Shown here: piece by piece, positions 21,626 to 40,020 of the stretch | Layout: every line of letters starts with the position of its first letter | Position numbering within the stretch: position 1 is the stretch's first letter | Assembly (NCBI RefSeq): GCF_900142545.1 | Contig: NZ_FRBF01000006.1 | Span: 62,001-126,000, forward strand | Origin: Fibrobacter sp. UWT2 | GTDB lineage: Bacteria; Fibrobacterota; Fibrobacteria; Fibrobacterales; Fibrobacteraceae | Direction: 5' to 3' | Length of the DNA stretch: 64,000 nucleotides | Notes under the pieces: model-generated | What the model was told of the DNA's origin: nothing | Database searches by the model: none | Seen by the model: only the letters and a program-made list of their open reading frames with translations | Made by a program: the position numbers and the translations under genes

Positions 21626-24600
21626 ATGGTTAGAGTAAACAACATTAAAAAGTTTTTAAACAAGTTATGGCTCGTACTGACGGTAGCGGGGGTTGCCTCG
21701 GCTGCAGATGTTGCACCGCTAGTTTTTGATAGTCTTACAACATATTACAAGGATCTTTCGGATGTAGGTAATCCTGCTACGATGGATTCTGCATTAAGGG
21801 CTCAACACCAAAAGTATTGGGAAAAGTTGATGACCTTTAAGATGTGGGGTTCTTTTGGTATCTCTATGGGGCATGCGAGTGCACCCGATGTCAACGGTGC
21901 AATTGGAACAGCTCATGGCTCTATGACTTTGACCAATGGCGATCACAAGTTAGGCGGCCCGATTTATATTGGCGGAGACATTGTGTTCCAAGATGGTCCG
22001 GATGTCTTTTTAAGTGGTCCTGCACGTGTTAAGGGTGATTTTAATACGGGTGCAAATGGTAATTCCTTTTATGGAACGCATTGTATCGAGGGGGCTGCTT
22101 CCACCAAGAATCAGAACTCAACTATCCAAGCCGAATTTAAAAGCGATAAAGAACCTGTAGGTAGGCTTGCTCAAGGGGCTGCCGCCAAGTTCGGTATGTG
22201 TTCTTACGATAGTGTTCCTGAAGTCCCGACATATCTTACGATTCCTGATGTGCCTGCTCTTCCTGCAAATGCGAACGTTATTTATGGCGATATAACCATT
22301 AATAATAATCAAACCTATTTCATTGATGTTCCGCCTAATAGCAACGGTTCGAATATATATGACGTTTATGTTGGTGGAAACATCATTATGGGCGCGAATT
22401 CGGGCATTGTTGTTCGTATGGCGAACAACAAGAATTTGGTTCGCCTGTTTATAAGTGGCTCGATTATTGCAAACTCCAGTTCGACAATTCAAGTGGCTTA
22501 CGTTGAGGAAGGAGCTCAATATGTAGGGGATGCATGGATTAACTCTACGAATCCTAAGTTTGTTGAGAATAAAGACTATGCAGGAAATGTATTGTTCCAT
22601 TGTAAAGAGGATATTGACTGGTCTGCGATGAATGGTGGATCTTTCTTCCAGGGTTCGTTCCTGTCAAAGAAAAAGATTAAGGTCGGCCCGAACTTGGTTC
22701 TGGCGGGTCAGCTCCTCGCCAATGAACTTGAAATTGGACACGAATTTGATGGCAGTTCCTTCCGCTATGTTCCGTTCGATCCTCCTGTTTTGCAGACTGC
22801 AGAAGGCATAAAGACTTATTTGGTCGAAGGCCATGCTCTGGATACGGTTAAGATTGCTTTGGACAAAGAAGCAACGACGCTTATTGATTTCGAATATTGC
22901 TTTGACTTCCAAGGAACTGTAGATGGCAAGGATCCCAATGGTCTTGCCGCTCGCGCTGATATCACTACTGCAAATATTCCGTTGTTCAATGGAACGGAAT
23001 GCGTCAATCCTGGTAAGGCCTATTTTGATGTCGGTAGCAAGAATCTGAGGGACCCCATCATTTTGACCGCCAATGATGACAAAATTGACGAAGGTGCTGA
23101 CAGCAAGCCTGGAAAGGAAACCTTTAGAATTATCATCCAGAACCTGAATGCCGCAACGCTGAAGGATGGTTCTCATGATGGCTACATCACTTTGGAGATC
23201 AGTGATCCTGATCTTCCTCCACTCAAGTTCGAAAAAGACACCTTGCGTGCGATTAACGAAAATCCGGTGAATAATGCAGTGATTGACACATTGCGCGGTG
23301 TTCATGATTTTGTTGGTTGTCCTGGTTGCAAGTATAGCTTGAGCGATACCAGCCATTATAGCGACTTTGTTACGGTTGAAGAAAATGGTACTGTTCGTGT
23401 CAAGGATTCAACCAAGTTTGACTTTGAAACCGTCCAGTATATCGATATCCAAGTTCATGTTGAAGATGTTGACAATAATATGGAAGCCGATACGACGATT
23501 ATTATTCCGATTGGCAACGTCAACGAAAATCCGATTTTGGACGACCAGAACTTTGATGTCAATGAACATAAGATCCCGGGAACTGTCGTCGGAACTCTCG
23601 AATGGGGTGAAAATGACTCCATACCTGTATTTAGGCAAGATGTGTTCACCGCTGTGGGTGGTGACACGGCCTACTTCTCGATTACTCCCGAAGGCGTAAT
23701 CAAGACTAAGAAGGAATTCGACTACGAGACGGAACCGCATACTTACACGATCGATGTAATGCTTGCCGACAAGAACGATCCGACGCTCTTCGTTGTCAAG
23801 ACGGTTACGATCACGATCAATGATGTGAACGAAAATCCGAAGATTATCACGGATACCATTCAGGTCAAGGAAAATTCTGATCCTGGCACCATCGTTGATA
23901 CCTTGGAAGCTATCGATAAGGACAACGACGAACTGACGTGGATTCTTGAAGAAGATCCTTCTGGATGCTTTGAATTGTCCGAGTCGGGTGTCGTGACCAC
24001 CAAGAAGTGCTCTAACCTTGATTACGAAAAGAACAAGACGATTTCGATCAAGGTCAAGGTGACGGATAATCGCGGTGGCGTTGATTCCAAGATTGTCGTT
24101 GTGAAACTCATCGATGTTCTTGCACCTGATCTCGAAATTACCGAAGCAAGCAACGAGGATTCCCTCTGGAAAAATCCTGAAATCATCTACACCCATACGG
24201 ATTCCCTTAACATCTGCTGGGAAATCAACAAGGCGAATAAGGATTGCTCCGATACAACGCTTAAGCCCGGCGAGAATAAGATCTGTAAGGAAGTTTGCGA
24301 TGTGGACGGCTTCGAAGGCTGTTCCAAGGATTGCTTCATTGCCTACTACAGCGACGTGTCTCCGATAGTTTACATCGATGCCGGTGGCGATGCTAACCTC
24401 GCCAGCAACATCTATACCATTGTGGAACAGCCCGCTGAAGGCGATACCAACGTGTACGTGAAGGATACGGTTCGCCAGATTACGGTGTACGTTACGGACA
24501 AGGATCCGATCAAGGGTGACTCTAGCTATAGCTTCACTATCCCTGTTGACCTGACCAAGAAGATTAGCGTGCCGCAAAAGACTTACGACGCTCTTTCTAA

Positions 24601-26173
24601 CGTGGCCAAGCAGACGGTGGCTCTTGACGAACTGAATCCGAAAACCACAAGTACTCCGATTAACGGAACCAACTACCTGAACTCCTACCCGACGACGATT
24701 GCCGGAATTGAAGTGACTGTCAGTTACGTGACCGACACTAAGGGCAACGTTGTCAAGCAGGCTGTGGTGAACGAAAAGGGTAAGGTCGATTCCATCGAAG
24801 TCATCACGGTGACTTACGAAACCGAAATTGACGGACAGAAGGTGAAGGTTTCTTACCAGGCTGACGCTACCACGGGCGAGGTTCTCAATGTGGATGGCAA
24901 CGGCGGCTTTATCGCTACCAAGAATTCTGAAAGCTCCAGCGGCATGTTCAAGGTCTCTTACGAATATACCGACAAGAATACTGGCAATGCGGTGGAACTG
25001 ACCTACGTTGTTGATAGCAAGGGCAATTCTGTCAAGAATCCGGAAGGCGACCGCGGCTACCAGGTGTCTTACACCTATGTAGACAAGTATGGCAATGCGG
25101 CCAAGCAGTCCGTGTTCGTGGTGCTCGACCAGACGCTTCCGACGGTGGAAATCCTCAAGCCTGTCGACAACCAGGTGGCTCATACGAACTTCGTGAATAT
25201 CGAATGGACTGTCAACGGCGAAAAGCAGGATTCCCTGACTGTCCAGGGGCTTGTAAAGGGACCGAACATCATTGTTCGCTTCTACAAGGATAAGGCTGGA
25301 AACATCGCCGCCGATACGGTGCGCGTGTACATGAAGGATGGCAAGGATCTCGACATTGCTGTGGAACGTCCGGTGACTATCGTGACCAAGGACAAGGTCG
25401 AAGAATACTACGCCGAAAACGCTCCCGAGAAGGGCCAGACCTTCGCTGTTAGCGTGAAGAACCCCACTACGGGCGACGAAGTGGAAACCTTGATTGGTGG
25501 TTCCTTCAAGACCAAGGACGGTAGCGGTGAAAAGCCATATGCCGGAGTTAGCGACTCCAAGCACCTGGGCCCGACCCTGATTCTTGACGTTGTGCTCCCG
25601 ACCGTCAGCGATGGCAAGAGCGGTACCGTGAGCGGCCTTGCGACTATGGATGACTTGATGCTCTCTAACGGTAGGATTTCTTCGGCCGGTATGGGCGTGG
25701 ATACTTCTAAGCTCGATGCCGCTGCGAAGAAGGACTACAAGGAATATACGGTTGACGAATACGTTTCCCAATTCTGCGAAGACGGAACCAAGATCCCCGA
25801 CGACGCAAGCGCCTTTAACCTGTACAACTCCAAGCTGAAGATCAAAATCTGGGTCTACACGACTCTCGGTAACTTTGTAAGCGATTACAGCTTTACCCAG
25901 GAACTGAACGACCCCAGCTACGCCAACGAAGCCGGCCTCACGAAGCTCTACTTCGAACTGAAACCGGATAAGGATGGCTATGTGCACGCAGAAAACGGTA
26001 AGCTTATGGCTACGGGCGCCTACGTGTACAAGGTAGAAGCTAGCCTGCAGAATAAGCTGCGTTGCTCGATTCCGCCGTTCAACGGCGGCACCGGAAAGAC
26101 CAAGGGTGACGTGACCAGGTCCCGCGAAGAGCTCCTGAAACCCTTCGGTTACAAGCGTCCGTCTAACAAGTAA
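21626..26173 (+). CDS. Giant cadherin-repeat surface protein (1515 aa)
   Basis: 1515 residues. A signal peptide (about 1-27, ends GVASAAD) leads to a roughly 380-residue domain of short repeated turns (GGPIYIGGDI, SGPARVKGDF, LAGQLLANELEIG) that probably folds as a beta-helix-like adhesin head. Calx-beta-like sequence and about three cadherin-like units follow (about 400-830), with NVNENP and DVNENP linkers. A C-terminal region from about 832 to 1515 is shared with the next gene and ends in a FlgD-like Ig segment (IWVYTTLGN, then ATGAYVYKVEAS) and GYKRPSNK. A surface adhesin for substrate or cell contact is the likely role, by inference. AGGGGG precedes the ATG. Confidence 0.8.
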   Translation: MVRVNNIKKFLNKLWLVLTVAGVASAADVAPLVFDSLTTYYKDLSDVGNPATMDSALRAQHQKYWEKLMTFKMWGSFGISMGHASAPDVNGAIGTAHGSMTLTNGDHKLGGPIYIGGDIVFQDGPDVFLSGPARVKGDFNTGANGNSFYGTHCIEGAASTKNQNSTIQAEFKSDKEPVGRLAQGAAAKFGMCSYDSVPEVPTYLTIPDVPALPANANVIYGDITINNNQTYFIDVPPNSNGSNIYDVYVGGNIIMGANSGIVVRMANNKNLVRLFISGSIIANSSSTIQVAYVEEGAQYVGDAWINSTNPKFVENKDYAGNVLFHCKEDIDWSAMNGGSFFQGSFLSKKKIKVGPNLVLAGQLLANELEIGHEFDGSSFRYVPFDPPVLQTAEGIKTYLVEGHALDTVKIALDKEATTLIDFEYCFDFQGTVDGKDPNGLAARADITTANIPLFNGTECVNPGKAYFDVGSKNLRDPIILTANDDKIDEGADSKPGKETFRIIIQNLNAATLKDGSHDGYITLEISDPDLPPLKFEKDTLRAINENPVNNAVIDTLRGVHDFVGCPGCKYSLSDTSHYSDFVTVEENGTVRVKDSTKFDFETVQYIDIQVHVEDVDNNMEADTTIIIPIGNVNENPILDDQNFDVNEHKIPGTVVGTLEWGENDSIPVFRQDVFTAVGGDTAYFSITPEGVIKTKKEFDYETEPHTYTIDVMLADKNDPTLFVVKTVTITINDVNENPKIITDTIQVKENSDPGTIVDTLEAIDKDNDELTWILEEDPSGCFELSESGVVTTKKCSNLDYEKNKTISIKVKVTDNRGGVDSKIVVVKLIDVLAPDLEITEASNEDSLWKNPEIIYTHTDSLNICWEINKANKDCSDTTLKPGENKICKEVCDVDGFEGCSKDCFIAYYSDVSPIVYIDAGGDANLASNIYTIVEQPAEGDTNVYVKDTVRQITVYVTDKDPIKGDSSYSFTIPVDLTKKISVPQKTYDALSNVAKQTVALDELNPKTTSTPINGTNYLNSYPTTIAGIEVTVSYVTDTKGNVVKQAVVNEKGKVDSIEVITVTYETEIDGQKVKVSYQADATTGEVLNVDGNGGFIATKNSESSSGMFKVSYEYTDKNTGNAVELTYVVDSKGNSVKNPEGDRGYQVSYTYVDKYGNAAKQSVFVVLDQTLPTVEILKPVDNQVAHTNFVNIEWTVNGEKQDSLTVQGLVKGPNIIVRFYKDKAGNIAADTVRVYMKDGKDLDIAVERPVTIVTKDKVEEYYAENAPEKGQTFAVSVKNPTTGDEVETLIGGSFKTKDGSGEKPYAGVSDSKHLGPTLILDVVLPTVSDGKSGTVSGLATMDDLMLSNGRISSAGMGVDTSKLDAAAKKDYKEYTVDEYVSQFCEDGTKIPDDASAFNLYNSKLKIKIWVYTTLGNFVSDYSFTQELNDPSYANEAGLTKLYFELKPDKDGYVHAENGKLMATGAYVYKVEASLQNKLRCSIPPFNGGTGKTKGDVTRSREELLKPFGYKRPSNK

Positions 26174-26508: not shown

Positions 26509-29500
26509 ATGTGGTTTGGAAAAAGCATAATGAAAAAACTCGGCCTTGCTCTTGCATTGGCAGTTCCCGCTTTTGCTGCGGATCTTGAACCGTTCCATTT
26601 TGCCAATGGAGGTAGTACTCATGAATCCCAGCAGGATTATTGGGAAGAAATGATGAAGTATAAGGTCTTCGGTGAAAAGGGGATCTCTTTCATTGGTGGA
26701 AATATTCGTGTTACGGATACTGTAGGTTGGTTTGGTACGGCCAAAGGTAATTTTGATATGTCTGGCAACAATGTTCACATTGTTGGCGGTCCCATCATGA
26801 TTGGTGGTAACATTATCTTGGGCGATGGTGATGATGCCTTTTCAACCGGTCCGGTGCGTGTTACGGAATCAATTGTTAAACAGGGTAATTTTGGCGGTAC
26901 AAACGTTCTTAAGGGAACTCAGTGTATTCAGGGGACTATACCCGCGCTTTATGAAAAAGCGGTTGTTGGTAATCTATACACAGATGATACTGATGTTACA
27001 GGTAAAACTGGTGGTAAATCGGGATCTTATGGAGATTGTCCGGTCAAAGAAGTTCCGCAGTTTCATCAGGACTTGACTATTCCGGAATTCCAGTATCCTA
27101 GCAGTTATACATTGCATGACGCAATTTCGATGAATAACTCCGTTGGTGTTATTGATGTTCCTAAAGGCTCTGGTCAATATGACTACTATATCAAAGGCCT
27201 CTCGTTTAGTAATGTTAGTGTCTTGGTTGTTAGAATGCCTAAAGGCGGACGTTTAACGCGAGTTTTGGTCCAGAACAACATTGAATTTGGTACGGCTCAC
27301 CCCAAAGTTCGTATCGTTTATATGGATGAGGATGTCGCATGGGTGGGTAATGACCAAACAGGACATTGGGACGCTGCTTATGGTTATGACGGGGAGCAAA
27401 ATGTAGATGTTACATATAATGGTCAAACGCAAACGGTAACTTCTTCTAAATGGCATGTAGATCATTCAACAACGCTTGAAAATAAAGATTATGGTGGTGA
27501 ATTGCTGATTTATACACCGGGAAAAATCCATTGGGGTGCGTTAACTCCGGTGGACTCCATGCAGGGCTCTTTTATTGCTGGGGATAGCATTATTATTGAA
27601 CAACAGATGACCTTGGCTGGTCAGCTCCTTGCAAAATTTGTTCAGATTAACGCTAACTTTGACGGTTCCGGTTTCCGCTTTGTTCCGTATGACAATCCTA
27701 AGGTGAAGTTGCCCAAGGCTGCGGATGATAGCGAATATTTGATTGAAGGTATTCCGAATGTCGTAAAAATCCAGTTGGACAAGCCTTCTAAGTTGAAGAT
27801 TGACTTTAACTATTGCTTCCAGTTTGAAGGCTCTAAAACCGATTTAACCTCTGGTTTAGCTTCCCGTGATGATATCCAGAATTCGGATATTCCGTTATAC
27901 AATGCAAGTACGGGAAAGTGCGCTACAAGCAAACCGGGTAGTTTTGAAATCGGTGAAACGTCAATGAGTACTCCGATAACATTGACTGCAACTAAGGATG
28001 AATACACTCCTGAGGGTAAAGGTCTTGACCGATTGGAAACATTCAAAATTTGGATCACGGGCCTGACGGGTGCAACGCTTGAAGATGGTTCTCATGATGG
28101 TTTCATTGTGTTGACGATTAAGGACGTTGGTGGTCCTCAATTTAATGATGATGTAAAGAAATACAATGTCAAAGAAAATACAGGGAAGAATATTGTCTTT
28201 GATAGCATTCCTATCAAGAATGTGAAAGTTGATGTTGCTGACGGAGACAAGTTTGATCTTGTTATTGATGGTGACGATGCAACTGCAGCTCAAACCTTGT
28301 TTAATTTTGAATTGGTAAAGGAAGCTCGCAATGATCCGGACGTTTATGATACGGCTTACATTAAGATGTCGGTTAAAAGCGCGCTTGACTATGAAGCTTT
28401 GACTAAGAATTCAAAGAATTCATTCAAGGTGACATTCCGTTTGAAGAATGACGCTACTGTTACTGATTCTACGACTCGTACAATCAATGTTCTTGATGTG
28501 AACGAAGTGCCGACAATTGATAGAATTTATGATCCTAAGTTGGCTCTCACGGCGGGTGCGTTTGATACTCTCAAAATTAAGGAAAAATCAAAGTTAGGCG
28601 ATACTGTTGGTTTTGTTAATGCCGTGGATCCTGATGTTTATAATGCGGTGTCTTTCGGTCATTTGGCTTTCTCTATCGTTGAAACGGGTATCCCGTTCAC
28701 GATGAATGATTCTGTGATTGTTGTCAATGACGCTTCTAAGATGAATTATGAAACTAAGGATAGCGTCTACACGTTTACCGTAAAAGTTGACAACTGTGAA
28801 ATGGCAACAAATGGTTCGTGGACAAAGAATTGCTTGACGACAAGCCATAAGGTGACCGTAAAGATTGTGAACGTTCCCGAAGATCCTGTTCTAGAGTGCT
28901 TTACTGATGATCTTGATTGCGCTGGCCCGTACACTGCAATTGAAAATTCCAAGATTGATTCTGTAATCCATGCATTCCATGTGGCAGATCCTGATATTGG
29001 TCAGCTTGCCACGCTTAAGGCATCTATTGCTGATACAAAGACGGGTGGTAAGGCTGCAGATTATTTCAAGGCTGTTATTTCACACGATACTTTGAACATT
29101 AAGGTTAAGAGTAATATTGACTATGAAAAAGTTGAATCTGAATATGTCGTCAAGATTACTGTTACTGATGCCGATTCAAAATCTGTTTCGATTACTCGTA
29201 CCATTAGTATTAAGGATGTGAATGAAAAGCCGACTGTAGACAGTCTTGATCGTAAGAATGACGGTTATACGGGTACGGCAGCAAGGGATAAGTTTACCTT
29301 GTATCCGAAGGAAAACCTGAAGGTAAATGATCCTGTCGGTATCGTTCGCACGACTGATCCGGATGTTTTGAATGCTGATTTCAGACATTCGACATTCTCT
29401 ATTGTTGAAGATGCATCTAACCCGGTTCCGTTTACGATGAAGGGAACACAGGATTCTACCATTTATGTGAATGATGCATCGAAGATGAATCATGAAGATA

Positions 29501-32500
29501 ATGTTGTTTACAAGTTCACGGTAAAGGTCCAAAACTGCGAAAAGGCTTCTGATAACTCGTGGACCAAGAACTGCTTGGAAACAACGCAGTTGGTTACGGT
29601 AAGAATCCAGAACGTGCCGGAAGGACCTACCATTGAATGTAAGGATACCGATACTCCTGAAGAATGTAATGGCCCGTACTATGTCAAGGAAAACTCTGCC
29701 GCGACAACCGTCGTTCACGAATTTATCGTGAAGGATCCGGATCTGGGTCAGATTGCTACTATGACGCCGTCTCTTAAGGACAATACGACTGGTGGCAAGG
29801 CTGCCGACTTCTTCGATGCTATCATGAAGGATGATACCTTGAAGATTGTTGTCAAGAGCAATATTGACTATGAAAAGGATCCGAAGACATTCAACGTAAA
29901 GGTTACGGTTACGGATGCCGATGGTAAGACCGATTACATTGACCGCGAAATTTACATTGTCGACGTGAACGAAAAGCCGGCGGTTGCAGATACAACTCTT
30001 ACCATTAAAGAAAATCTTGCCAATGGCAAGGTTGCCGGTACTGTTTCCGCTTCTGACCTCGATAAGATCAATATCAAGGCTTTTGCCCATCTCGAATACG
30101 AAATTCTTCCGATTCCGGGTGAAACTATTCCGTTCAAGATGGATTCTAACAAAATTGTGGTGACGGATGCAAGTGCCCTTAACTACGAAGCCCTGAAACC
30201 GGATACGACCTTTACCTTTAAAGTTCGTGTCACAAACTGCCCGATTGATTCTTCGACGTGGAATGCCGAAAAACCCTCGTATCCGAGAACGGATGATTGC
30301 TTGTTTGATGAAGCTAGCGTATTGCTTTCTGTGACCGATGTTCCCGAAACGACAATCATTATTCCTGATTGTAAGGGTGATAGTTGCACGGAATGCACTG
30401 GCCCGGATTGCCACGACATTGTGGATTCGCTCTGCAAGGGCCCGAATTGCACCGGTGTCCATACCCATGACTCTGTCTTGACTCTTGCGGTAGAGGAAAA
30501 TGTTCCGACCGGTTACAAGATTATCGACTACTTAGTTGCTGACGAAGACGTCGGAACTGGCCATAAGGATTCTCTGTACGCATACTTCAAGAATACGAAT
30601 GCCTCTGGCGCTGACAGCCTGTTCAAGATTTATATGCAGAAGGTCGGTGGCAAGTGGAGAGTCGTGGTTGCCGTAAAGGATGGCAGCAAGCTTGACTACG
30701 AAACTGTCAGCGACATTCACAAGCTCACGATTTACGTTAGCGATCCTGAAGATCCTGCCGGTATGGGTGACTCTATCCGTCGCATTATCGAAGTTGTCGA
30801 CGTGAACGAAGCTCCGAGCGCAAAGGATGCCGACCTGAAACCCGAAGAAAATCTGCCGAAGGGTACTGTCGTTGGTAAGCTTGATGTTACTGAACCGGAT
30901 ATTAAGCATGTCAAGGAATTTGGCCACTTGGAATACTCCATTATCGGTAAGGACAGCACCTATGCCTTCGTGATGGACTCCAACAAGGTTGTGGTGAATG
31001 ATCCGACCAAGATGGATTACGAACTTGCCGTGCATAAGTACGTGTTCAATGTCTTGATTTCGAACTGCGAACTGAACGCATCTTCTGGCAAGTATGATGG
31101 TGCATGCCTCTATGACACTGCTAAGGTGACTGTCGACATCCAGGATGTCAACGAAAAGCCGACGATCATTGTCGATGGTCCTGTTCCGGATGGTGACGAC
31201 GATTCCGATACGCTTTGCGTTGCCGTCTGCGATACTACAGACCGTGGCGTCAAGAGCAAGGATTCTATCCTTACCATTGGTATCAGGGAAAATCCGGATA
31301 ATCCGAATGGTACTAAGAAGATCGTTACTCCGACGGGTATGATCTTGTTCCAGTATCATGTTGCTGACGAAGATACCAACCATGCTACTGGTGCTAAGGT
31401 AACTTGGTTCGATGCTGGTACGACAATTCCGGGCGTGAGCACGAAGGGCTCCGACCTCTTTACGATTGCTTACGATTCTGTAAAGCATGTGATTACGGTG
31501 CGCGTCAAGGACGAAAAGCTGCTTGACTACGAAACACTTAGAAATGCAACTTCTCGTGATGATCCGGATCCGGAATACACGATGGGCATTGTCGTGACAG
31601 ACCCGAAGGGCTTGGCCGATACTCTCTATCGTAAGATTCGCGTGACGGATGAAAACGAAAAGCCGCTCTTCGATGTCTGGCCGCTCGTGATTACCGAAAA
31701 CAACCATATTAACGATTCCCTTGGCCACGTGGAACACCCGAGCGATATCGACTCGATGTCTAGGAATCCGGAATTGTTCGATAACGGCTTCAAGATGACG
31801 GGTGGTGATACCGCTTTGTTCTGGCTCGACAAGGACTCTACGGACTTGATGCGAGTCATGATTCGCGCGAATGTCGTGCTTGACTGCGAAAATGGTGAGT
31901 ATATCTGCGGCCAGGATTCCATGTACTGGGTGTACATGACGTATGGCGATACGACCCTCAAGACTGTCTATACAGACTTGAAGATTCCTGTCAAGCTGAT
32001 TGACTTGAACGAACCGCCTAAGATTCTGACCGATACCATCGGTGTTGATGAAAACTCGCCGAAGGGTACCGTTGTCGATACGATCAAGTGGGATGACATT
32101 GACCGCTTCGATTCTGTGATGACCTTCAAGATTGTTGACGATCCGATTGGCTGCTTCGAAATCGATTCGAAGACGGGTGTCGTGACTATCAGCGATAGCA
32201 AGTGCCCGGGTCTTGACTTCGAAAAGAATCCGACGATCGACCTCAAGGTATCTATCACTGACATGGTGAATATTCCGGATAGCTTGTACGACGAAAAGTG
32301 TAAGTGCCAGTTGATCTCGGCTAAGGATGGACCGATTACGGTCACGAAGACTGTCAAGGTCAACATTCACGACGTGAACGAACCGCCTTCCATTACGGAT
32401 AAGACGATCACGGTGAAGGAAGACACCAAGCCGGGTACGGTTATCGATACCGTGCGTGCAACCGATCCGGATAAGGATCCGAAGAAGCGCGAACTGACTT

Positions 32501-34758
32501 ATACGCTGATCGACGGTGATACGACCACCTTCAAGATTGACCCGAAGTCGGGTGCCTTGACCTTGATCGATTCCCTCGACTACGAAACCAAGAACAGCTA
32601 CTACGTGACTGTCCAGGTGGATGACGGTGAATTCGCCGATACCGCCAAGGTCAAGATCAATATCAGTAACATCGAAGAATGGACCAACGTCAAGATTACG
32701 GAAGCAAGTTCCGATAAGAAGACTTGGGAAGATCCTGAAACGATTTACACCAACCATCCGATCCGCGAAATCTGCTGGAACCAAGATGGTTACGATACTT
32801 GCATGACTGATCTGAACATTGCGAAGGATTCTGTTGTGGTCATTTCTTGGAAGAACCCGGCCAAGGACCATGCGGGTAGCGATACGGTAAGAATCTACTT
32901 CAGCGACGCTATTCCGGCTGTGACCGTGACTGGCAAGCCCACGCTGGTTGATGCAGAAAACGTGTTTACTCTTGTGGAAGACATGGAAGGCGACACCAAC
33001 ATCTACATCAATACGATGAAGGATTCTATCTGGGTGTCCATTAAGGATCCTGCCGGTAAGAAGGATACTTCCTTTGCTATCGAAGTGAACCTTGATCCGG
33101 TTACCGTTTCTCAGGGTACACTCGATAAGGTTAGCAAGATTGCCGATTCCAAGCTGATGCGCGATGAAACCGGCAAGAAGGTGACCGAAACTCCGGTGAA
33201 CTCCGACATGATCAAGTTCTCTTACAAGGAAATCGTTGGCCAGGACACCGTGACGATTTCTTACCTGACCGACAAGAAGGGTAACCCCGTCAAGGTGCCG
33301 GTGATCAACGACAAGGGCAAGGTTGACTCTGTCGAAGTGATTACCGTGACCTACAAGACCAGGGTCGGCGGCAACAATGGTAAGGACGTCGAAGTTTCTT
33401 ACCAGGCTGACGCTTTGACTGGTGAAATCTTCGTGAAGGGTCCGTCTGGCGAACTAATGGAACAGGGTGCTTCCAAGACCGTGTTTGCTCCTACCGAAAA
33501 GGATTCTTCCAAGACTACCAGCCGTTACACGACCAACGAAGGTATGTTTACGATTACCACGACGACCAGGGATGCCCTTGGCAACGACAGGACGATTTCG
33601 TACTTCGTCGACAAGAAGGGCAACGCGGTCAAGAGCCCCGAAGGCGATATGGGCTTCTCTGTGACCTACACCTACGAAAACAAGTATGGCAACGTCGCAA
33701 CGGAATCCGTATTCATCGTGGTTGACCAGGTGCTTCCGAAGGTGGAAATCCTTTCGCCGACCAACAAGGAAATTATCCGCTCGAACTCTGTGCAGGTTGT
33801 CTGGACTGTTGACGGTGTCATTCAGGATACCTTGACGCTCCAGGGTCTCTCTAAGGGTCCGAACCCGATTATCCGTATCTACCGCGACAAGGCCGGTAAC
33901 GAAGCCTCTGCTACGGTGTATGTGTACATGAAGGACAGCAAGGATGTTGACATTTCTGTTGAACAGCCGGTGACCGAGATCTCGAGAGAAAAGATCGAAG
34001 AATACTATGCTATCAACCCGCCTGAAAAGGGTGAAACCTTTGCTGTGAGCATCAGGAACCCGACTACGGGCGAAGAAGTGGAAACCTTGATTGGTGGCGA
34101 CTTCAAGACCAAGGAAGGTAGCGGTAAGGAACCGTATCCGGGTGCATCCGGATCCAAGCACTTGGGCCCGACCCTCGCTATGGATATCAAGGTGCCGGTG
34201 ATCGACGCTATTTCTGGCCTCGCAACGCTCGACGACTTGATTACTCCGGATGGAATGATCGCTCTCGAACGTACGAACTCCAAGAAGAGCCACAAGATCA
34301 CTGTTGAAGAATACGTTGAAGAATACTGCGAAGACGGCTTCAAGATCGGTAGCGATGCAAGCAAGGTGAACCTGTTTGACATCAAGCTGAACGCCAAGAT
34401 CTGGGTCTACACCTCGCTGGGCAACTTCGTGGATTACTTCAGCTTCACTCAGGAACTGAATGACCCGAGCTTCACGGATGACGCCGGTCTCCTTGAAATG
34501 TACTTCGAAATGAAACCGGATAAGGACGGCTTTGTAAGGGCTGACAATGGCAAGCAGTATGCTACCGGCGCCTTCGTCTACAAGGTTCAGGCCAATATCC
34601 GTTCCAAGGCTCGTTGTACGATTCCGGACGGCACCTACGATCCGGATCACAACAAGGGTGATGGCTACGGCGAAACCACCAAGCGCAAGGGTGACGTTGT
34701 CAAGAACAGCGACGAACTCTTGAAGTCCTTCGGTTACCGTCGTCCGAAAAACAAGTAA
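26509..34758 (+). CDS. Giant cadherin-repeat surface protein (2749 aa)
   Basis: 2749 residues, paralogous to the gene at 21626. A signal peptide (cut near AFAAD) and the same head domain (GGPIMIGGNI, LAGQLLAKFVQI; to about 420) come first. About 12 cadherin-like units follow (about 540-2058), joined by DVNEKP-type linkers. Units from about 678 to 1714 alternate as four A-B pairs; A units hold two Cys (such as NCEMATNGSWTKNC) and the A-B linkers are Cys-rich. The tail (about 2058-2749) matches the paralog and ends RRPKNK. AGGAG lies 8 bases before the ATG. Calcium-dependent rigid adhesin is the inferred role. Confidence 0.85.
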   Translation: MWFGKSIMKKLGLALALAVPAFAADLEPFHFANGGSTHESQQDYWEEMMKYKVFGEKGISFIGGNIRVTDTVGWFGTAKGNFDMSGNNVHIVGGPIMIGGNIILGDGDDAFSTGPVRVTESIVKQGNFGGTNVLKGTQCIQGTIPALYEKAVVGNLYTDDTDVTGKTGGKSGSYGDCPVKEVPQFHQDLTIPEFQYPSSYTLHDAISMNNSVGVIDVPKGSGQYDYYIKGLSFSNVSVLVVRMPKGGRLTRVLVQNNIEFGTAHPKVRIVYMDEDVAWVGNDQTGHWDAAYGYDGEQNVDVTYNGQTQTVTSSKWHVDHSTTLENKDYGGELLIYTPGKIHWGALTPVDSMQGSFIAGDSIIIEQQMTLAGQLLAKFVQINANFDGSGFRFVPYDNPKVKLPKAADDSEYLIEGIPNVVKIQLDKPSKLKIDFNYCFQFEGSKTDLTSGLASRDDIQNSDIPLYNASTGKCATSKPGSFEIGETSMSTPITLTATKDEYTPEGKGLDRLETFKIWITGLTGATLEDGSHDGFIVLTIKDVGGPQFNDDVKKYNVKENTGKNIVFDSIPIKNVKVDVADGDKFDLVIDGDDATAAQTLFNFELVKEARNDPDVYDTAYIKMSVKSALDYEALTKNSKNSFKVTFRLKNDATVTDSTTRTINVLDVNEVPTIDRIYDPKLALTAGAFDTLKIKEKSKLGDTVGFVNAVDPDVYNAVSFGHLAFSIVETGIPFTMNDSVIVVNDASKMNYETKDSVYTFTVKVDNCEMATNGSWTKNCLTTSHKVTVKIVNVPEDPVLECFTDDLDCAGPYTAIENSKIDSVIHAFHVADPDIGQLATLKASIADTKTGGKAADYFKAVISHDTLNIKVKSNIDYEKVESEYVVKITVTDADSKSVSITRTISIKDVNEKPTVDSLDRKNDGYTGTAARDKFTLYPKENLKVNDPVGIVRTTDPDVLNADFRHSTFSIVEDASNPVPFTMKGTQDSTIYVNDASKMNHEDNVVYKFTVKVQNCEKASDNSWTKNCLETTQLVTVRIQNVPEGPTIECKDTDTPEECNGPYYVKENSAATTVVHEFIVKDPDLGQIATMTPSLKDNTTGGKAADFFDAIMKDDTLKIVVKSNIDYEKDPKTFNVKVTVTDADGKTDYIDREIYIVDVNEKPAVADTTLTIKENLANGKVAGTVSASDLDKINIKAFAHLEYEILPIPGETIPFKMDSNKIVVTDASALNYEALKPDTTFTFKVRVTNCPIDSSTWNAEKPSYPRTDDCLFDEASVLLSVTDVPETTIIIPDCKGDSCTECTGPDCHDIVDSLCKGPNCTGVHTHDSVLTLAVEENVPTGYKIIDYLVADEDVGTGHKDSLYAYFKNTNASGADSLFKIYMQKVGGKWRVVVAVKDGSKLDYETVSDIHKLTIYVSDPEDPAGMGDSIRRIIEVVDVNEAPSAKDADLKPEENLPKGTVVGKLDVTEPDIKHVKEFGHLEYSIIGKDSTYAFVMDSNKVVVNDPTKMDYELAVHKYVFNVLISNCELNASSGKYDGACLYDTAKVTVDIQDVNEKPTIIVDGPVPDGDDDSDTLCVAVCDTTDRGVKSKDSILTIGIRENPDNPNGTKKIVTPTGMILFQYHVADEDTNHATGAKVTWFDAGTTIPGVSTKGSDLFTIAYDSVKHVITVRVKDEKLLDYETLRNATSRDDPDPEYTMGIVVTDPKGLADTLYRKIRVTDENEKPLFDVWPLVITENNHINDSLGHVEHPSDIDSMSRNPELFDNGFKMTGGDTALFWLDKDSTDLMRVMIRANVVLDCENGEYICGQDSMYWVYMTYGDTTLKTVYTDLKIPVKLIDLNEPPKILTDTIGVDENSPKGTVVDTIKWDDIDRFDSVMTFKIVDDPIGCFEIDSKTGVVTISDSKCPGLDFEKNPTIDLKVSITDMVNIPDSLYDEKCKCQLISAKDGPITVTKTVKVNIHDVNEPPSITDKTITVKEDTKPGTVIDTVRATDPDKDPKKRELTYTLIDGDTTTFKIDPKSGALTLIDSLDYETKNSYYVTVQVDDGEFADTAKVKINISNIEEWTNVKITEASSDKKTWEDPETIYTNHPIREICWNQDGYDTCMTDLNIAKDSVVVISWKNPAKDHAGSDTVRIYFSDAIPAVTVTGKPTLVDAENVFTLVEDMEGDTNIYINTMKDSIWVSIKDPAGKKDTSFAIEVNLDPVTVSQGTLDKVSKIADSKLMRDETGKKVTETPVNSDMIKFSYKEIVGQDTVTISYLTDKKGNPVKVPVINDKGKVDSVEVITVTYKTRVGGNNGKDVEVSYQADALTGEIFVKGPSGELMEQGASKTVFAPTEKDSSKTTSRYTTNEGMFTITTTTRDALGNDRTISYFVDKKGNAVKSPEGDMGFSVTYTYENKYGNVATESVFIVVDQVLPKVEILSPTNKEIIRSNSVQVVWTVDGVIQDTLTLQGLSKGPNPIIRIYRDKAGNEASATVYVYMKDSKDVDISVEQPVTEISREKIEEYYAINPPEKGETFAVSIRNPTTGEEVETLIGGDFKTKEGSGKEPYPGASGSKHLGPTLAMDIKVPVIDAISGLATLDDLITPDGMIALERTNSKKSHKITVEEYVEEYCEDGFKIGSDASKVNLFDIKLNAKIWVYTSLGNFVDYFSFTQELNDPSFTDDAGLLEMYFEMKPDKDGFVRADNGKQYATGAFVYKVQANIRSKARCTIPDGTYDPDHNKGDGYGETTKRKGDVVKNSDELLKSFGYRRPKNK

Positions 34759-35172: not shown

Positions 35173-35278
35173 AAATAGCGGCTCGGGGGGAGATTGATTT
35201 ATATCACCAGGCAAAAAAAGTGAGTGCTTTTTTCGAAAAAAAAGGGTATTTTTTAAGAGATTGAGAAGAGGGCTTACA

Positions 35279-36907
35279 ATGGTCAGAATTTCCGTTTCAC
35301 GCAAAACGTTTTTACGCTCGTTGTTTATTCTTGCCGTAGTGCCTGCGATGGCATTTTCGGGTCCTTCTGTCGGTACCGCAAGCATGCCTGTGAACGAAGT
35401 CGATCGCTGGAAGGCCAAGCAGAGTCAGTGGAAACCTCTCGGTAACGGTGCCAAGATTTATCAGTCCGATAAAGTGCGTACGGGCGCAGAATCCGAAGTG
35501 GTGATTCGACTCCCTGACGGAAGCTCCATCAAGATTGGCGAAAAGACGATTGTCGAAATGGAAAGTCTTTTTGAACCCAACGACGAAGGCGGTTTCGAAA
35601 CCATGATCGACGTGGAAAAGGGTTTCTTGAATTTCGCCGTACATAAACTCAAAAACAAGAAGTCTAAGTTCATCTTCAAGACGGGAACCGCAACTGCATC
35701 GATTCGCGGTACCGAAGGCTATATTGGCGGCGAAGGTGTTTTCTTCGCGGGCCTGAAAACGGGTAAGCTGGAAATCAAGCCCAACGGTTCTGACCAGTTG
35801 GTGTCCATTGTCGCTGGCGAAACCACTTTCGGAACGGATTCCCTGGTGGTGGTGAAGTTGGCCTCTTCTGGTGAAGCCCGCTTCGCGAAGCGTCTTTCGA
35901 AGATTCTTTCGGACAAGTCCAAGTCGACGAAGGCTTTGAAGGCTGAACTTGAAAAAGCCGATACTGAATTCCAGGCTCAGCTGAAAGAAGAAGCCAAGCA
36001 GGCTGCCGCAACGGTTCCCGAGAACGGCTTTATCGTAAGCACTGTTTCGCCGGTGGAAATTTGCGAAGACGGTCTTGTGGTTGACGGCTCTTACCGAACC
36101 TCTGATGAATCTGCCACGCTGGTCTTGAAGGTGGGCAATTCCTATACCTCTAGCAACTTGATCCGCGCTGCCGATGGCCAGGCTCATTCCTTCTCTGAAA
36201 AGGTCGTGGTCAACGACGATAACGGTCTCTGGAAAGCTGAAAAGGCAACTCTTGAATTCAAGGGCGCCGGTGTGACCAGTTCCAAGTCCATTGACTTGAT
36301 GGTGAACAAGGCTTGCGTCGACGTGAATACGAAGGCTCCTACGGCATCGATTATTTCTTATGACTCTTTGCGCTGTATTGCCAACGTGATGGTCGGTGAA
36401 ATTCAGAATGATGCCGGTATCCTGGTCATGGAAGCGGATGGAAGCAAGTTGAGCGAAGAAACGGTGACCAAGAATTCCCAGAAGAGACTGAAACTGCAGA
36501 AGGGCCGCCATGAATATGTGGTCCGCGTTGAAGACTTGGCGTCGAACAAGGCTGAAGTCACCAAGAAGATGGGTTGCTACCCGAACAAGAGATTCCCGGT
36601 AGAAGTCCTGGGTCCCGCAAAGGAAGTGTTGAAGGTCCCGCCTCCGCCGCAGGATATTCCGGATCGCATTACGCAGACGCTCCAGTTTAGAATTCGAATT
36701 CCTGAAAATGATCCTGATTACTTGTACAAGGTAACTGTTAGACAAAACGGCAAGGTCATTTTGCAAGAATCGCTATCGCAGATTCACAACCTGGATTACC
36801 AGATTCCAGTGTCGCTAACGCGAGGGGCGAGAAACCATTTCGATATCGAAGTCGTTCACAAGAGCGGATATATATCGAAGGCTAAGAAGGATTACGAGGT
36901 TCATTGA
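35279..36907 (+). CDS. FecR-domain exported protein
   Basis: 542 residues from the ATG at 35279, with AGAGGG upstream; a TTG six codons earlier is less likely. A signal peptide ends near AMAFSG. A FecR domain (about 35-170) contains GAKIYQSDKVRTGAESEVVIR (in parts: VRTGAESE) and LPDGSSIKIGE, then the typical TASIRGTEGYIGG near 145. A Lys/Ala-rich helix (about 205-245) and Ig-like segments follow. No anti-sigma membrane segment is seen, so it is not a classical FecR regulator. The stop overlaps the next ATG by one base, so the two proteins are made together. Confidence 0.85.
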   Translation: MVRISVSRKTFLRSLFILAVVPAMAFSGPSVGTASMPVNEVDRWKAKQSQWKPLGNGAKIYQSDKVRTGAESEVVIRLPDGSSIKIGEKTIVEMESLFEPNDEGGFETMIDVEKGFLNFAVHKLKNKKSKFIFKTGTATASIRGTEGYIGGEGVFFAGLKTGKLEIKPNGSDQLVSIVAGETTFGTDSLVVVKLASSGEARFAKRLSKILSDKSKSTKALKAELEKADTEFQAQLKEEAKQAAATVPENGFIVSTVSPVEICEDGLVVDGSYRTSDESATLVLKVGNSYTSSNLIRAADGQAHSFSEKVVVNDDNGLWKAEKATLEFKGAGVTSSKSIDLMVNKACVDVNTKAPTASIISYDSLRCIANVMVGEIQNDAGILVMEADGSKLSEETVTKNSQKRLKLQKGRHEYVVRVEDLASNKAEVTKKMGCYPNKRFPVEVLGPAKEVLKVPPPPQDIPDRITQTLQFRIRIPENDPDYLYKVTVRQNGKVILQESLSQIHNLDYQIPVSLTRGARNHFDIEVVHKSGYISKAKKDYEVH

Positions 36908-39900
36908 TGAAACTTAGGGATTGGTTTGTAGGCGTACTTTCTATGGCAGCACTCCACGTGAGTGCTTTTGCCGTTGATACGGCCCTCCAGCAAGGGAGCG
37001 TGATTGGAGGCGAAGTATCCGGTTTCTTGAAAAAAGACAAGTCTCCGTACCTGGTGAACGAGACCCTAGTGGTGCCCGAAGGCAAAGCCCTGGTCGTGGA
37101 AGCGGGAACCGAGATTTACTTTAACGAAGGCACGGGTCTTGATGTCCGTGGTGGTTCTTTGGCGGTGATGGGCGAGAGCCATAATCCGGTGGTGATGACC
37201 GCTGCAGAAGAAGACAAGTATTGGAACGGTATTTCCATTACGGGAAACAAGTCTTGCGAAACTCAAGGCACCCATATCAAGAATGCTCAGTTTGGCTATG
37301 CGGTTGAAAGCGGTTCCTTGGAAGTTCGCGATGGCGTTATCAAGAACGCTGGCCGCACTGCCATCTATGTCCGCAACGCCTCTTTGGCGATGAAGTGGAC
37401 AACGGTTGAAGATGGTCGCAATGTGGGCGTGTGGGCGGCCTCTAATGCCAAAATCGATATCGATGGTTCCAATTTGACGCAAAACAAGATTGCCTTGGTT
37501 GCCGGCGAAAATGCCGTGGTGAACATGAAACGCGTTCACTTGGAATCTAACGATGTAGCCATTCTCGACTTTGGTAACAACAACTTGAAGCAGAGAAATT
37601 CCTTGATTATGGATAACGTAATCGGCCTTGTTTCCAAGGACATTCCGCCTGAAGAAATTCGCCAGGCGTTGGAAGACAACAAGAGACCGCTTGCGAATAA
37701 TATGAACGACTATACGGGTATGCTGGGCGACGAGCCCCGTAATCCTTACGCAAATACCGAAAAATTTGCAGGCAACCAGGACGATTCTGCGGATTCTGTC
37801 TGGTCTATTTCGGGTAGCGTAGGCGTTGAAATGGGCTATCACAAGGTGCTGATGCGCCACAATTCTTCGGGCCAAAAGTACGTGTCCGATAAGGATACGG
37901 TGCTTCCGCGCGAACGCTACATCAACTACTTCCAGGTTCCGGGATTCTTTACCAACTGGAATGCCAACTTGTTGATGAAGTCTCCTACGGGAGCAACGAT
38001 GGAATTCCTCTTGGATGCTTCAAGCGATTCCTGGGATAACCTTAAGCTTTACCAGTTGCAAGCCAGCTATACGGACGATATGCAGCACTTGGTCCTCGGT
38101 GATTTCTATGCGAACGGGGGAGAGATTTACCTGTCTGGCATGAACGCTTTTGGTGGCTTGTATGAACTGTCGCTGCTCAAGAATGCGGCCAACATCCCGA
38201 CTTTCGTCGGTACGGCTTTTGCGGGCGAAATGAATGCTCCCAAGATTCAGGGCAAGCGCAACTACGATGTGTACAAGGATTACATTGATGATGGTGAAGC
38301 CGAGGCCCAGCGCATCGGAGCCGGCGGAAGTATCCGCTGGAATATGCACCGTCGCTTTAACGGAACCTTGGGCTTTGTGGCCAGCAAGGATTACCTGGAA
38401 GATCCTTTTATGAGGGACGGCATGTCTCCCGAAACCAACACGGCAAAACCCCTGGTGACATCTAGAGCCTTCTTTGCCGATGGTAACTGGCTGGTTTACC
38501 CTGGCGATATCAAGCTGAATGGCCAGGTTGCCGTAGGTGGAGCCGATACCTTGAATGCCGCTAAAATCAGGGCGGTAAATCAGGTGTTCTCGGAAGCGGG
38601 ACTGGATCCGTCGAATTTTGCGCTCTTGAATAAGCTGATGAGTAACGTGAACCAGGTAAATTCCTTGACGCCTGCCGAGTTGAATGAGATTTTTGGTGAA
38701 AATGCCATGATGACTCCTTCTGAGATGCGCGCCGAATTGAAGGCCCTTTTGAAGGAAGCTTCTAGGGTGGCGAGGACATTGCAGACCGAAGACAGTAGGC
38801 CTTCTCATGGTGAATTCTGGGGCCATGAACATTGGGCTTTTGCCGGATCTTACCAGTGGTCGAATCCGACGACTTCTATTGAAGGTTTCTTCAGGTATGT
38901 GGGTGCCGAATATTACAGCCCCGGTTCCGAAGACTTGTTGCAGAATACCCGCATGATTGGTGGTAACTTGAAGCATAAGATTTATGACTTCTGGAACTTG
39001 GGCTTTGGCTATACCTTGAATATTGAAAACGCTGCCGGAGAAGGCAACGATTACAATATCTTCGGCTTGGGTGAAGGTACCCAGTGGGGCCTTACGGGCG
39101 CCGATGACGATTGGCTCAAGAAGCATGAGCAGGATATGGTGCGCACGCTGTATATTCACGATGGTTACTTGAAGAACGACTTCAAGTTGAATGAAAAGGT
39201 CGGCCTTTCTTTCAAGTACGCCCTGAATTACAGAACCCGCAGCACGCCGCAACGCCTGTACGGCAACTACTCGGCCTCTTCGGGTATTTATGATGACCCG
39301 TGGTTTGACGCTATTAAAGGTCGTCCGACTGTGAAGGTGAATGAAGGGCTCGATACGACGGTTATTGATTCGGCTCATTGGGCTCAGTATTATGCACTTG
39401 TCGATGAAGATTATTTGGCAACCCAGTTCGAAGAAAAACTGATGAAGCATACTCTTGAACTCGGGCTTTCTTTCAAGTTCCCCAAGAACTTGCTGAAACT
39501 TGGGGCGGGTTTGGTGGCCTTTACGGATATGTCGGAATTCAAGCAAGACAACCTGATTTCTGGCTTTAGGTTCAAGAACGAAACCTATGGCATTCTGGGT
39601 TACTATTTCCACGGAAGTGATTACCTGGAACAGCGTTACCCGATTTCTTTGACGACGACGATGGACGGCTTCAAGAATTCCGTTTCGTTGACGCCCCGCT
39701 ACAAGGTGTACAATCGTAACGAAATGCGCGAGTTCGAGTGGAGTTTCTTGGATAACATGGATATTGAACTTTCCAGGGACTTTTTGGAACTGGGCCTGTC
39801 GGGTGGTTTGCGTCAGAACTTCTTGAGCTACGAGATCAAGGACCAGGATTACGACGAAATGGAACTCGATATCGACGCTTCTGCAAAATTACGTATACAT

Positions 39901-40020
39901 CACACCCAGGCCTTGTATACAGATTGGACATTAGGTTCAATTTTCAACTATCGTCCGGATAACAAGGCTGACCAGTATAAGGATTTTTATATAATTGCAG
40001 CAGTGAATTACGACTTTTAG
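36907..40020 (+). CDS. Exported protein with beta-helix and outer-membrane-barrel-like region
   Basis: 1037 residues from the ATG at 36907, which overlaps the FecR stop (TGATG). After a signal peptide (ends SAFAVD) a right-handed beta-helix-like domain (about 30-260) shows repeated turns: LVVEAGTEIYFNEG, LDVRGGSLAVMG, SLEVRDGVIKNAG, RTAIYVRNAS. From about 300 to the end the protein is rich in aromatic alternating strands with long polar loops and ends in NYDF, a C-terminal Phe as in outer-membrane barrels. No TonB box or plug is evident. I infer an outer-membrane protein working with the FecR protein. Confidence 0.75.
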   Translation: MKLRDWFVGVLSMAALHVSAFAVDTALQQGSVIGGEVSGFLKKDKSPYLVNETLVVPEGKALVVEAGTEIYFNEGTGLDVRGGSLAVMGESHNPVVMTAAEEDKYWNGISITGNKSCETQGTHIKNAQFGYAVESGSLEVRDGVIKNAGRTAIYVRNASLAMKWTTVEDGRNVGVWAASNAKIDIDGSNLTQNKIALVAGENAVVNMKRVHLESNDVAILDFGNNNLKQRNSLIMDNVIGLVSKDIPPEEIRQALEDNKRPLANNMNDYTGMLGDEPRNPYANTEKFAGNQDDSADSVWSISGSVGVEMGYHKVLMRHNSSGQKYVSDKDTVLPRERYINYFQVPGFFTNWNANLLMKSPTGATMEFLLDASSDSWDNLKLYQLQASYTDDMQHLVLGDFYANGGEIYLSGMNAFGGLYELSLLKNAANIPTFVGTAFAGEMNAPKIQGKRNYDVYKDYIDDGEAEAQRIGAGGSIRWNMHRRFNGTLGFVASKDYLEDPFMRDGMSPETNTAKPLVTSRAFFADGNWLVYPGDIKLNGQVAVGGADTLNAAKIRAVNQVFSEAGLDPSNFALLNKLMSNVNQVNSLTPAELNEIFGENAMMTPSEMRAELKALLKEASRVARTLQTEDSRPSHGEFWGHEHWAFAGSYQWSNPTTSIEGFFRYVGAEYYSPGSEDLLQNTRMIGGNLKHKIYDFWNLGFGYTLNIENAAGEGNDYNIFGLGEGTQWGLTGADDDWLKKHEQDMVRTLYIHDGYLKNDFKLNEKVGLSFKYALNYRTRSTPQRLYGNYSASSGIYDDPWFDAIKGRPTVKVNEGLDTTVIDSAHWAQYYALVDEDYLATQFEEKLMKHTLELGLSFKFPKNLLKLGAGLVAFTDMSEFKQDNLISGFRFKNETYGILGYYFHGSDYLEQRYPISLTTTMDGFKNSVSLTPRYKVYNRNEMREFEWSFLDNMDIELSRDFLELGLSGGLRQNFLSYEIKDQDYDEMELDIDASAKLRIHHTQALYTDWTLGSIFNYRPDNKADQYKDFYIIAAVNYDF

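Follow-up and report, generated by a model that had tools for sequence, protein, structure and literature searches.

The window analysed here, a stretch of 64,000 nucleotides from Fibrobacter sp. UWT2 (NZ_FRBF01000006.1, positions 62,001 to 126,000), carries two tandem genes for cadherin-domain proteins. The long gene encodes a predicted surface protein of 2749 amino acids built around a cadherin array (26509..34758, + strand), and ORF calling reproduced the coordinates and length of the original prediction exactly. The protein matches the Pfam family Cadherin (PF00028) with 164.9 bits (E 5.9e-49), against a curated cut-off of 28.8. Its short paralogue (1515 amino acids, 21626..26173, +), identified by Pfam and alignment, has the same N- and C-terminal regions, only a few generic cadherin domains and no A-B array. 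All PF00028 matches in the genome fall in these two genes.

The long protein begins with a predicted signal peptide that would be cleaved after residue 23, between AVPAFA and AD (26509..26577; this and all of the following features of the protein are on the + strand), and relatives show the same N-terminal pattern. Next is an N-terminal head (aa 24-546, 26578..28146), which AlphaFold and Foldseek portray as a beta-solenoid followed by a Calx-beta-like domain, with two Cys pairs. The stalk consists of 12 tandem cadherin domains. The first, B0 (aa 548-668, 28150..28512), is B-like and precedes four A-B pairs (aa 669-1719) in which two kinds of domain alternate. The alignments delimit A1 (aa 669-789, 28513..28875, Cys 763/775), B1 (aa 790-908, 28876..29232, linker Cys 797/804), A2 (aa 909-1036, 29233..29616, Cys 1010/1022), B2 (aa 1037-1157, 29617..29979, linker Cys 1044/1053), A3 (aa 1158-1277, 29980..30339, Cys 1244/1264), B3 (aa 1278-1436, 30340..30816, with a six-Cys linker insert), A4 (aa 1437-1551, 30817..31161, Cys 1520/1533) and B4 (aa 1552-1719, 31162..31665), which has an acidic linker with the motif CVAVC (Cys 1570/1574). 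A4 and B4 are 89% and 93% identical to their counterparts in the related long protein G5. Three proximal domains without A-B alternation, D9, D10 and D11 (aa 1720-2046, 31666..32646), were placed by Pfam and alignments and complete the stalk. The conserved C-terminal region (aa 2047-2749, 32647..34755), defined by the family alignment, is probably Ig-like and ends in the family tail LLKSFGYRRPKNK (aa 2737-2749, nt 34717-34755). Opposite the array there is a 779-aa antisense ORF (30532-32871, - strand) together with other long antisense ORFs, which we take to be likely artefacts of codon usage.

Relatives of these genes are present in 23 of the 24 other genomes of the genus. The sole genome in which no family member was detected is G001, which is 94% complete. 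Named orthologues come from rumen MAGs labelled Fibrobacter succinogenes, Fibrobacter sp. and Fibrobacterales. The family shares one plan, in which N-terminal and C-terminal regions of ~500 aa and ~700 aa, respectively, enclose a variable cadherin array. FGY[KR]RP plus a few residues ends every complete member that was aligned, and in the UWT2 genome this tail forms the C-terminus of only two proteins, the tandem cadherin pair.

Gene order is also conserved, running DUF5683 - histidine phosphatase - short cadherin gene - long cadherin gene - FecR - beta-helix, and then GH9 where the locus extends that far. The FecR-domain protein (35261-36907; Pfam FecR 43.7 bits), whose position is conserved across the genus, is directly downstream of the long gene and has weak NCBIfam matches to Lsa33, LipL45 and the LapA retention module. 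The next gene (36904-40020), which has a weak right-handed beta-helix match, overlaps the end of the FecR gene with its start codon, an order kept in relatives. It is followed by a GH9 enzyme (40072-41841), adjacent in L070-L072 too. In the window just 0.5 kb separates the long cadherin gene from the FecR gene; in L067 (14071-17523) and L045 (9276-12728) a 1150-aa protein lies between them that reads, from its sequence, like an MFS-acyltransferase-acyl-ACP synthetase fusion.

Periodicity and evolution of the cadherin array

The original prediction held that two kinds of cadherin-like unit alternate as four A-B pairs, and that a self-comparison would give a diagonal at an offset of about 245 residues. 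The alternation is borne out by offset diagonals, pairwise alignments and a peak at a lag of two domains. In an ungapped self-comparison, the strongest diagonals are at offsets of 249, 247 and 279 residues, and the best 35-residue windows on the first two score 120-130, compared with at most 50 in 20 shuffles. A units score 101-273 against each other (30-52% identity), B1 scores 328 against B2 (55%) and B3 scores 154 against B4 (34%). Scores between A and B units are 35-80, at or slightly over the shuffled background (mean 31, maximum 59). Mean domain scores at lags of one to six are 51, 128, 45, 86, 58 and 92, and the lag-2 excess is significant when domain order is shuffled (permutation p=0.0008).

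The extent of the array and the definition of the B unit were only partly right. The four pairs stand, but the B-like domain ahead of A1 had been missed. B0 scores 75 against B1 and 67 against B2, and in L045 and L070-L072 the unit in this slot is also called B; the array is therefore B0-(A-B)x4. The motifs ENS, HAF and SNIDYEK, proposed for B units in general, are present in B1 and B2 and are specific to those two. Judged by alignment, "B" is two subtypes, B1/B2 and B3/B4, which score 74-95 against one another, roughly the likeness seen among the protein's other cadherin domains.

The assignment of the units as cadherin domains agrees with both the Pfam match and structure prediction. For A3-B3-A4-B4, an alignment of tandem blocks with 27 rows gave an AlphaFold model whose mean pLDDT is 81.7 and in which segments below 50 are confined to the two Cys-bearing linkers. 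Foldseek matches this model to protocadherin EC3-6 (E 1e-25, prob 1.0) and also to desmocollin and N-cadherin ectodomains. As modelled, the A and B units are confirmed to have the seven-strand cadherin fold. Thus, the two things on which the original prediction depended, offset diagonals and cadherin folds, were both found.

The DNA of the window array has one detectable repeat pair (580 bp, 64% identity, offset 729). Because these repeats are only 64% identical, the duplications are old, and we rejected a recent expansion of the array in the window. In some Fibrobacter species the array repeats are 82-95% identical in DNA, reaching 94.8% over 1218 nt in L040. Of the 19 long genes examined, 12 have detectable self-repeats. 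In these genes the strongest repeat is spaced by 615-825 nt, or two domains, except in L055 and L059, where the spacing is 1362-1365 nt (about four domains). Single-domain spacing was not found in any of the 19 genes.

Seven long proteins (those of the window, G5, G3, G7, G9, G10 and G20; p 0.0002-0.001) show a significant lag-2 excess, which is weaker or absent in other long proteins, including L041 and L046-L049. Domain order is B-(A-B)x5 in L045 (G020) and in L072, five A-B pairs occur in L050 (G010), and L040 (G009) and L051 (G007) also have alternating arrays. In L051, two B units two domains apart (aa 1083-1200 and 1319-1437) are almost identical and the adjoining A-type units differ, as if, to judge from the sequences, the B units had been homogenised apart from A.

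Trees of the units indicate that a pair was exchanged as a whole. These were quick trees without bootstrap and with some long branches, including W_1 and W_2; in them, window A1 joins the A units of position 2 (SH-aLRT 96), window B1 joins the B units of position 2 (SH-aLRT 99), and the A1 and B1 units of relatives fall elsewhere. Window B1 is 29% identical to G3 B1 and 55% identical to window B2. Since A1 and B1 both group with position 2, we conclude that pair 1 was replaced by copies of pair 2 in the window lineage. B4, in contrast, is orthologous by position throughout the clade. Between the window, G5 and G3 proteins, conservation within the array is highest in the proximal B3, A4, B4 and D9 (62-93% identity) and lowest in the distal A1 and B1 (29-51%).

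The number of pairs, which the original prediction suggested comparing with other Fibrobacter genomes, is four in the window protein, G3, G5 and L067-L071, and five in L072, whose pairs include sister pairs in the tree. Because close relatives hold exactly four pairs, stalk length is not obviously variable over short times. Array composition differs widely among species, and the ends of the proteins are conserved. The spacing of repeats by even numbers of domains and the replacement of a whole pair together identify the two-domain unit as the evolutionary unit. DNA repeat spacing, trees and the lag-2 signal thus give strong support, both in the window and elsewhere in the genus, to the original proposal that the array grew by duplicating a two-domain unit. 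The family clearly illustrates stalk evolution that proceeds by a module of two domains and not by single domains.

Cysteines and calcium motifs at the domain junctions

Two further predicted features, a two-Cys loop in the A units and Cys-rich A-to-B linkers, hold throughout the array. An NC...C loop occurs in all four A units, and all four linkers contain Cys (2, 2, 6 and 2), with the most in repeat 3. That cysteines would be out of place in a cadherin array holds less well, as there is precedent: vertebrate cadherins carry some. Among 350 domain matches, the numbers with zero, one, two, three and four Cys are 250, 16, 71, 9 and 4, compared with Poisson expectations of 197, 113, 33, 6 and 1. 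There is thus an excess of domains with no Cys or two, and singles are rare (16 versus 113 expected). In the pairs 797/804, 1931/1933 and 2089/2098, both cysteines are either present or missing when orthologues are compared.

The positions of the cysteines suggest local bonds. In A3 and A4 (model residues 87/107 and 363/376, respectively) one Cys sits where strand F ends and the other where strand G begins, a modelled geometry that would suit a bond closing the F-G hairpin. The Cys-rich A3-to-B3 linker (aa 1288-1314, 30370..30450) has the pattern C-x4-C-x2-C-x4-C-x7-C-x4-C; all six of its cysteines are common to G5 and five to G3, whose last Cys is shifted. Few residues separate the linker cysteines, which are disordered in the AlphaFold model (in most of the A3-to-B3 linker, pLDDT is about 40-55). 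The genome encodes DsbA, and a DsbA oxidoreductase has been detected in the envelope of F. succinogenes S85 (PMC4619616). At least one giant Ig-domain adhesin from bacteria also has disulfides (PMC10619420).

The paired cysteines are most simply read as forming local disulfides. Since the pairs come and go mostly as local pairs, the evidence suggests such bonds and not locks between A and B. The idea of disulfide-locked A-B pairs therefore survives only in that the cysteines act in pairs. Nothing indicates A-to-B bonds. We rejected them as the default on two grounds: each Cys pair is local, and the model shows the linker inserts as disordered.

Putative inter-domain Ca2+ motifs are present in the window protein, where we scored each junction for the motifs E, DxD, LDxE and DxN-D/E, with nine canonical ligands. 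Junctions with a Cys linker have a mean of 7.0 of 9 ligands, compared with 8.29 of 9 at those without. Three of the four A-to-B motifs lack the Asn (NVPE, NVPE and DVPE), and D-x-N-E is kept in all of the B-to-A motifs. The loss of ligands is more pronounced in L045 (G020), in which four of the five A-to-B junctions hold only 1-3 of the 9 ligands and the others 9 of 9 (means of 3.0 at Cys-linker junctions and 9.0 elsewhere).

These observations raise the possibility that B-to-A junctions are clamped by Ca2+ and that A-to-B junctions have lost ligands and use a disulfide hairpin instead, giving a stalk of alternating rigid and flexible joints. This reading is compatible with the one that we favour below, and we regard it as doubtful. 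Loss of D-x-N-E does go with Cys linkers (Fisher p=7e-4, with related sequences counted as independent), but essentially two lineages are behind the signal. Cys linkers in L040 (G9), L039 (G19) and the proximal units of L051 (G7) hold 8-9 ligands, and over all 292 junctions the ligand score at Cys linkers is not significantly lower (p=0.105). A genus-wide rule that Cys linkers replace Ca2+ ligands is therefore unsupported; since the signal is confined to some lineages, alternating joints are a lineage-level hypothesis. The array does make it possible to ask whether, at every other cadherin joint, a local disulfide takes the place of Ca2+.

The head, the tail and the possible role of the protein

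AlphaFold models the head with high confidence (aa 24-546, pLDDT 89.1, pTM 0.89) as short, regularly spaced solenoid strands followed by further beta domains. Its Foldseek matches include 6eio, 6bg8, 2qvk and 3gin, and no PDB structure matches at E<=0.001. The DUF3494 ice-binding solenoid 6eio matches with E 3.9e-3 and prob 1.0, and the Calx-beta match also has prob 1.0. Tapirin ranks first by E, but with prob of 0.35-0.44 and TM of at most 0.25. Profile searches find PF11999 (Ice_binding) weakly in 7 of 44 family members (best E 0.0014, with none shown over the cut-off), PF20597 (pAdhesive_15) in 1 of 44 and DUF7305, weakly, in 3 of 44. None of the three matches the window protein itself, and a profile search with the N-terminal region found no match among PDB sequences. 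The model points weakly to a beta-solenoid distantly like the ice-binding DUF3494 fold.

How the protein might be held at the surface is less apparent from its domains. The T9SS sorting tail (TIGR04183/PF18962) is absent from the long cadherin gene and has 60 matches elsewhere in the genome, which also has SprA; searches found no known anchor in the window protein. Two neighbours in the window look like T9SS-type cargo: a GH5 cellulase with a Por_Secre_tail (5062-7758) and a GH43-CBM6 protein with a TIGR04183 match at its end (9123-11303).

To our knowledge, Fibrobacter, a gut bacterium that digests plant fibre, has no cellulosome, and the usual suspects for its grip on cellulose are fibro-slime and pilin proteins. 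With a putative solenoid head and a long stalk of cadherins, the genus-wide tandem gene pair offers a concrete, little-studied candidate for cellulose attachment. The interpretation that we favour, and consider reasonably likely, is that the window protein sits on the cell surface and resembles fibrillar adhesins, with a solenoid head, a cadherin stalk built of pairs, a conserved tail and local disulfides. It probably serves attachment to plant fibre. The beta-solenoid head and Calx-beta-like neck would be held off the outer membrane by the 12-cadherin stalk, which Ca2+ at most domain junctions may stiffen. The C-terminal region, with its invariant FGY[KR]RP tail, would act in export or anchoring. 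Duplication or replacement of whole A-B (or B-A) pairs would have lengthened, shortened and homogenised the array across the genus, and copying by pairs would keep both types of junction in register. One local disulfide may close the F-G hairpin of each A unit and others cross-link the A-to-B linker inserts; these bonds would stabilise the stalk in a protease-rich gut and not lock A to B.

An alternative, which we think unlikely, is that the array itself binds plant polysaccharide through its A and B units and that the head is merely a cap. Cadherin domains of Saccharophagus have been reported as carbohydrate-binding modules (Fraiberg 2011, as cited in PMC12153261), and GH9, GH5 and GH43-CBM6 enzymes are among the neighbouring genes. 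However, the short paralogue combines the head and C-terminal region with only a few generic cadherins. The variability of the array between conserved ends is what would be expected of a spacer, and the proximal position of its most conserved units and distal position of its most divergent ones also speak against binding by the array. We put less weight still on a homophilic cell-cell or biofilm adhesin acting through array-array contacts, as in vertebrate cadherins, because the best Foldseek matches of the array model, vertebrate clustered protocadherins and classical cadherins, reflect shared fold only, and the species-specific divergence of the distal units fits either reading.

A more elaborate version of the favoured adhesin can be imagined. 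Pair duplication would keep Ca2+-clamped B-A joints and Ca2+-deficient, disulfide-bearing A-B joints in register, and the solenoid head would dock onto crystalline cellulose in the manner of an ice-binding solenoid on ice. We consider this combination improbable.

Relation to known proteins

Fibrillar adhesins (PMC8286594, PMC9210967) share with the window protein a putative adhesive head, a stalk of tandem beta domains and the form of a giant secreted protein. Unlike them, the Fibrobacter protein has a stalk that repeats as two-domain pairs, a head assigned to no adhesive family and no known anchor that we could find. The main text of both surveys makes no mention of cadherins. The closest parallel to the pairs is SasG and other Periscope Proteins (PMC8201768), in which an alternating two-domain spacer (E-G5 in SasG) changes length by tandem duplication. 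The Fibrobacter stalk differs in its cadherin folds, its Cys pairs and the stable number of pairs among close relatives. Its repeats in the window are 52-55% identical at most (DNA 64%), below the identity of at least 80% between adjacent repeats that marks Periscope Proteins.

The cadherin proteins of Saccharophagus degradans, as described, likewise place bacterial cadherin domains in a polysaccharide degrader, although binding is assigned there to the cadherin domains themselves. The giant adhesin of Mobiluncus mulieris (PMC10619420) has repeated Ig-like stalk domains with covalent cross-links that include disulfides; it belongs to another fold family and has ester, isopeptide and thioester bonds too. 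Ice-binding (DUF3494) proteins and tapirins resemble the head in having a beta-solenoid or beta-helix, with weak fold and profile likeness. Bacterial cadherin domains, two-domain spacers (SasG E-G5, PMC8201768) and disulfide-bearing adhesin stalks (PMC10619420) are thus separately known. In the literature searched, we found no description of a cadherin stalk that evolves by pairs, combined with paired cysteines and genus-wide tandem genes.

The cell-envelope proteins FSU_2932 and FSU_2931 of F. succinogenes S85 have been annotated and detected (PMC4619616), and the literature searched gave no account of their pair structure or Cys pattern. FSU_2932, a "Cadherin domain protein" of 317.9 kDa, is predicted to be in the outer membrane and to be cleaved at 23-24. 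It is likely to be the orthologue of the window protein, to judge by how it is annotated, its size, the site of its signal peptide and the locus tag next to it. It was detected on microcrystalline cellulose only, with a count of two; FSU_2931 ("Cadherin"), adjoining by locus tag, was seen on glucose and on a second cellulose (PMC4619616). The species whose long proteins are closest in size to FSU_2932 are those of L046-L049, and in their long genes the strongest lag is four domains, not two.
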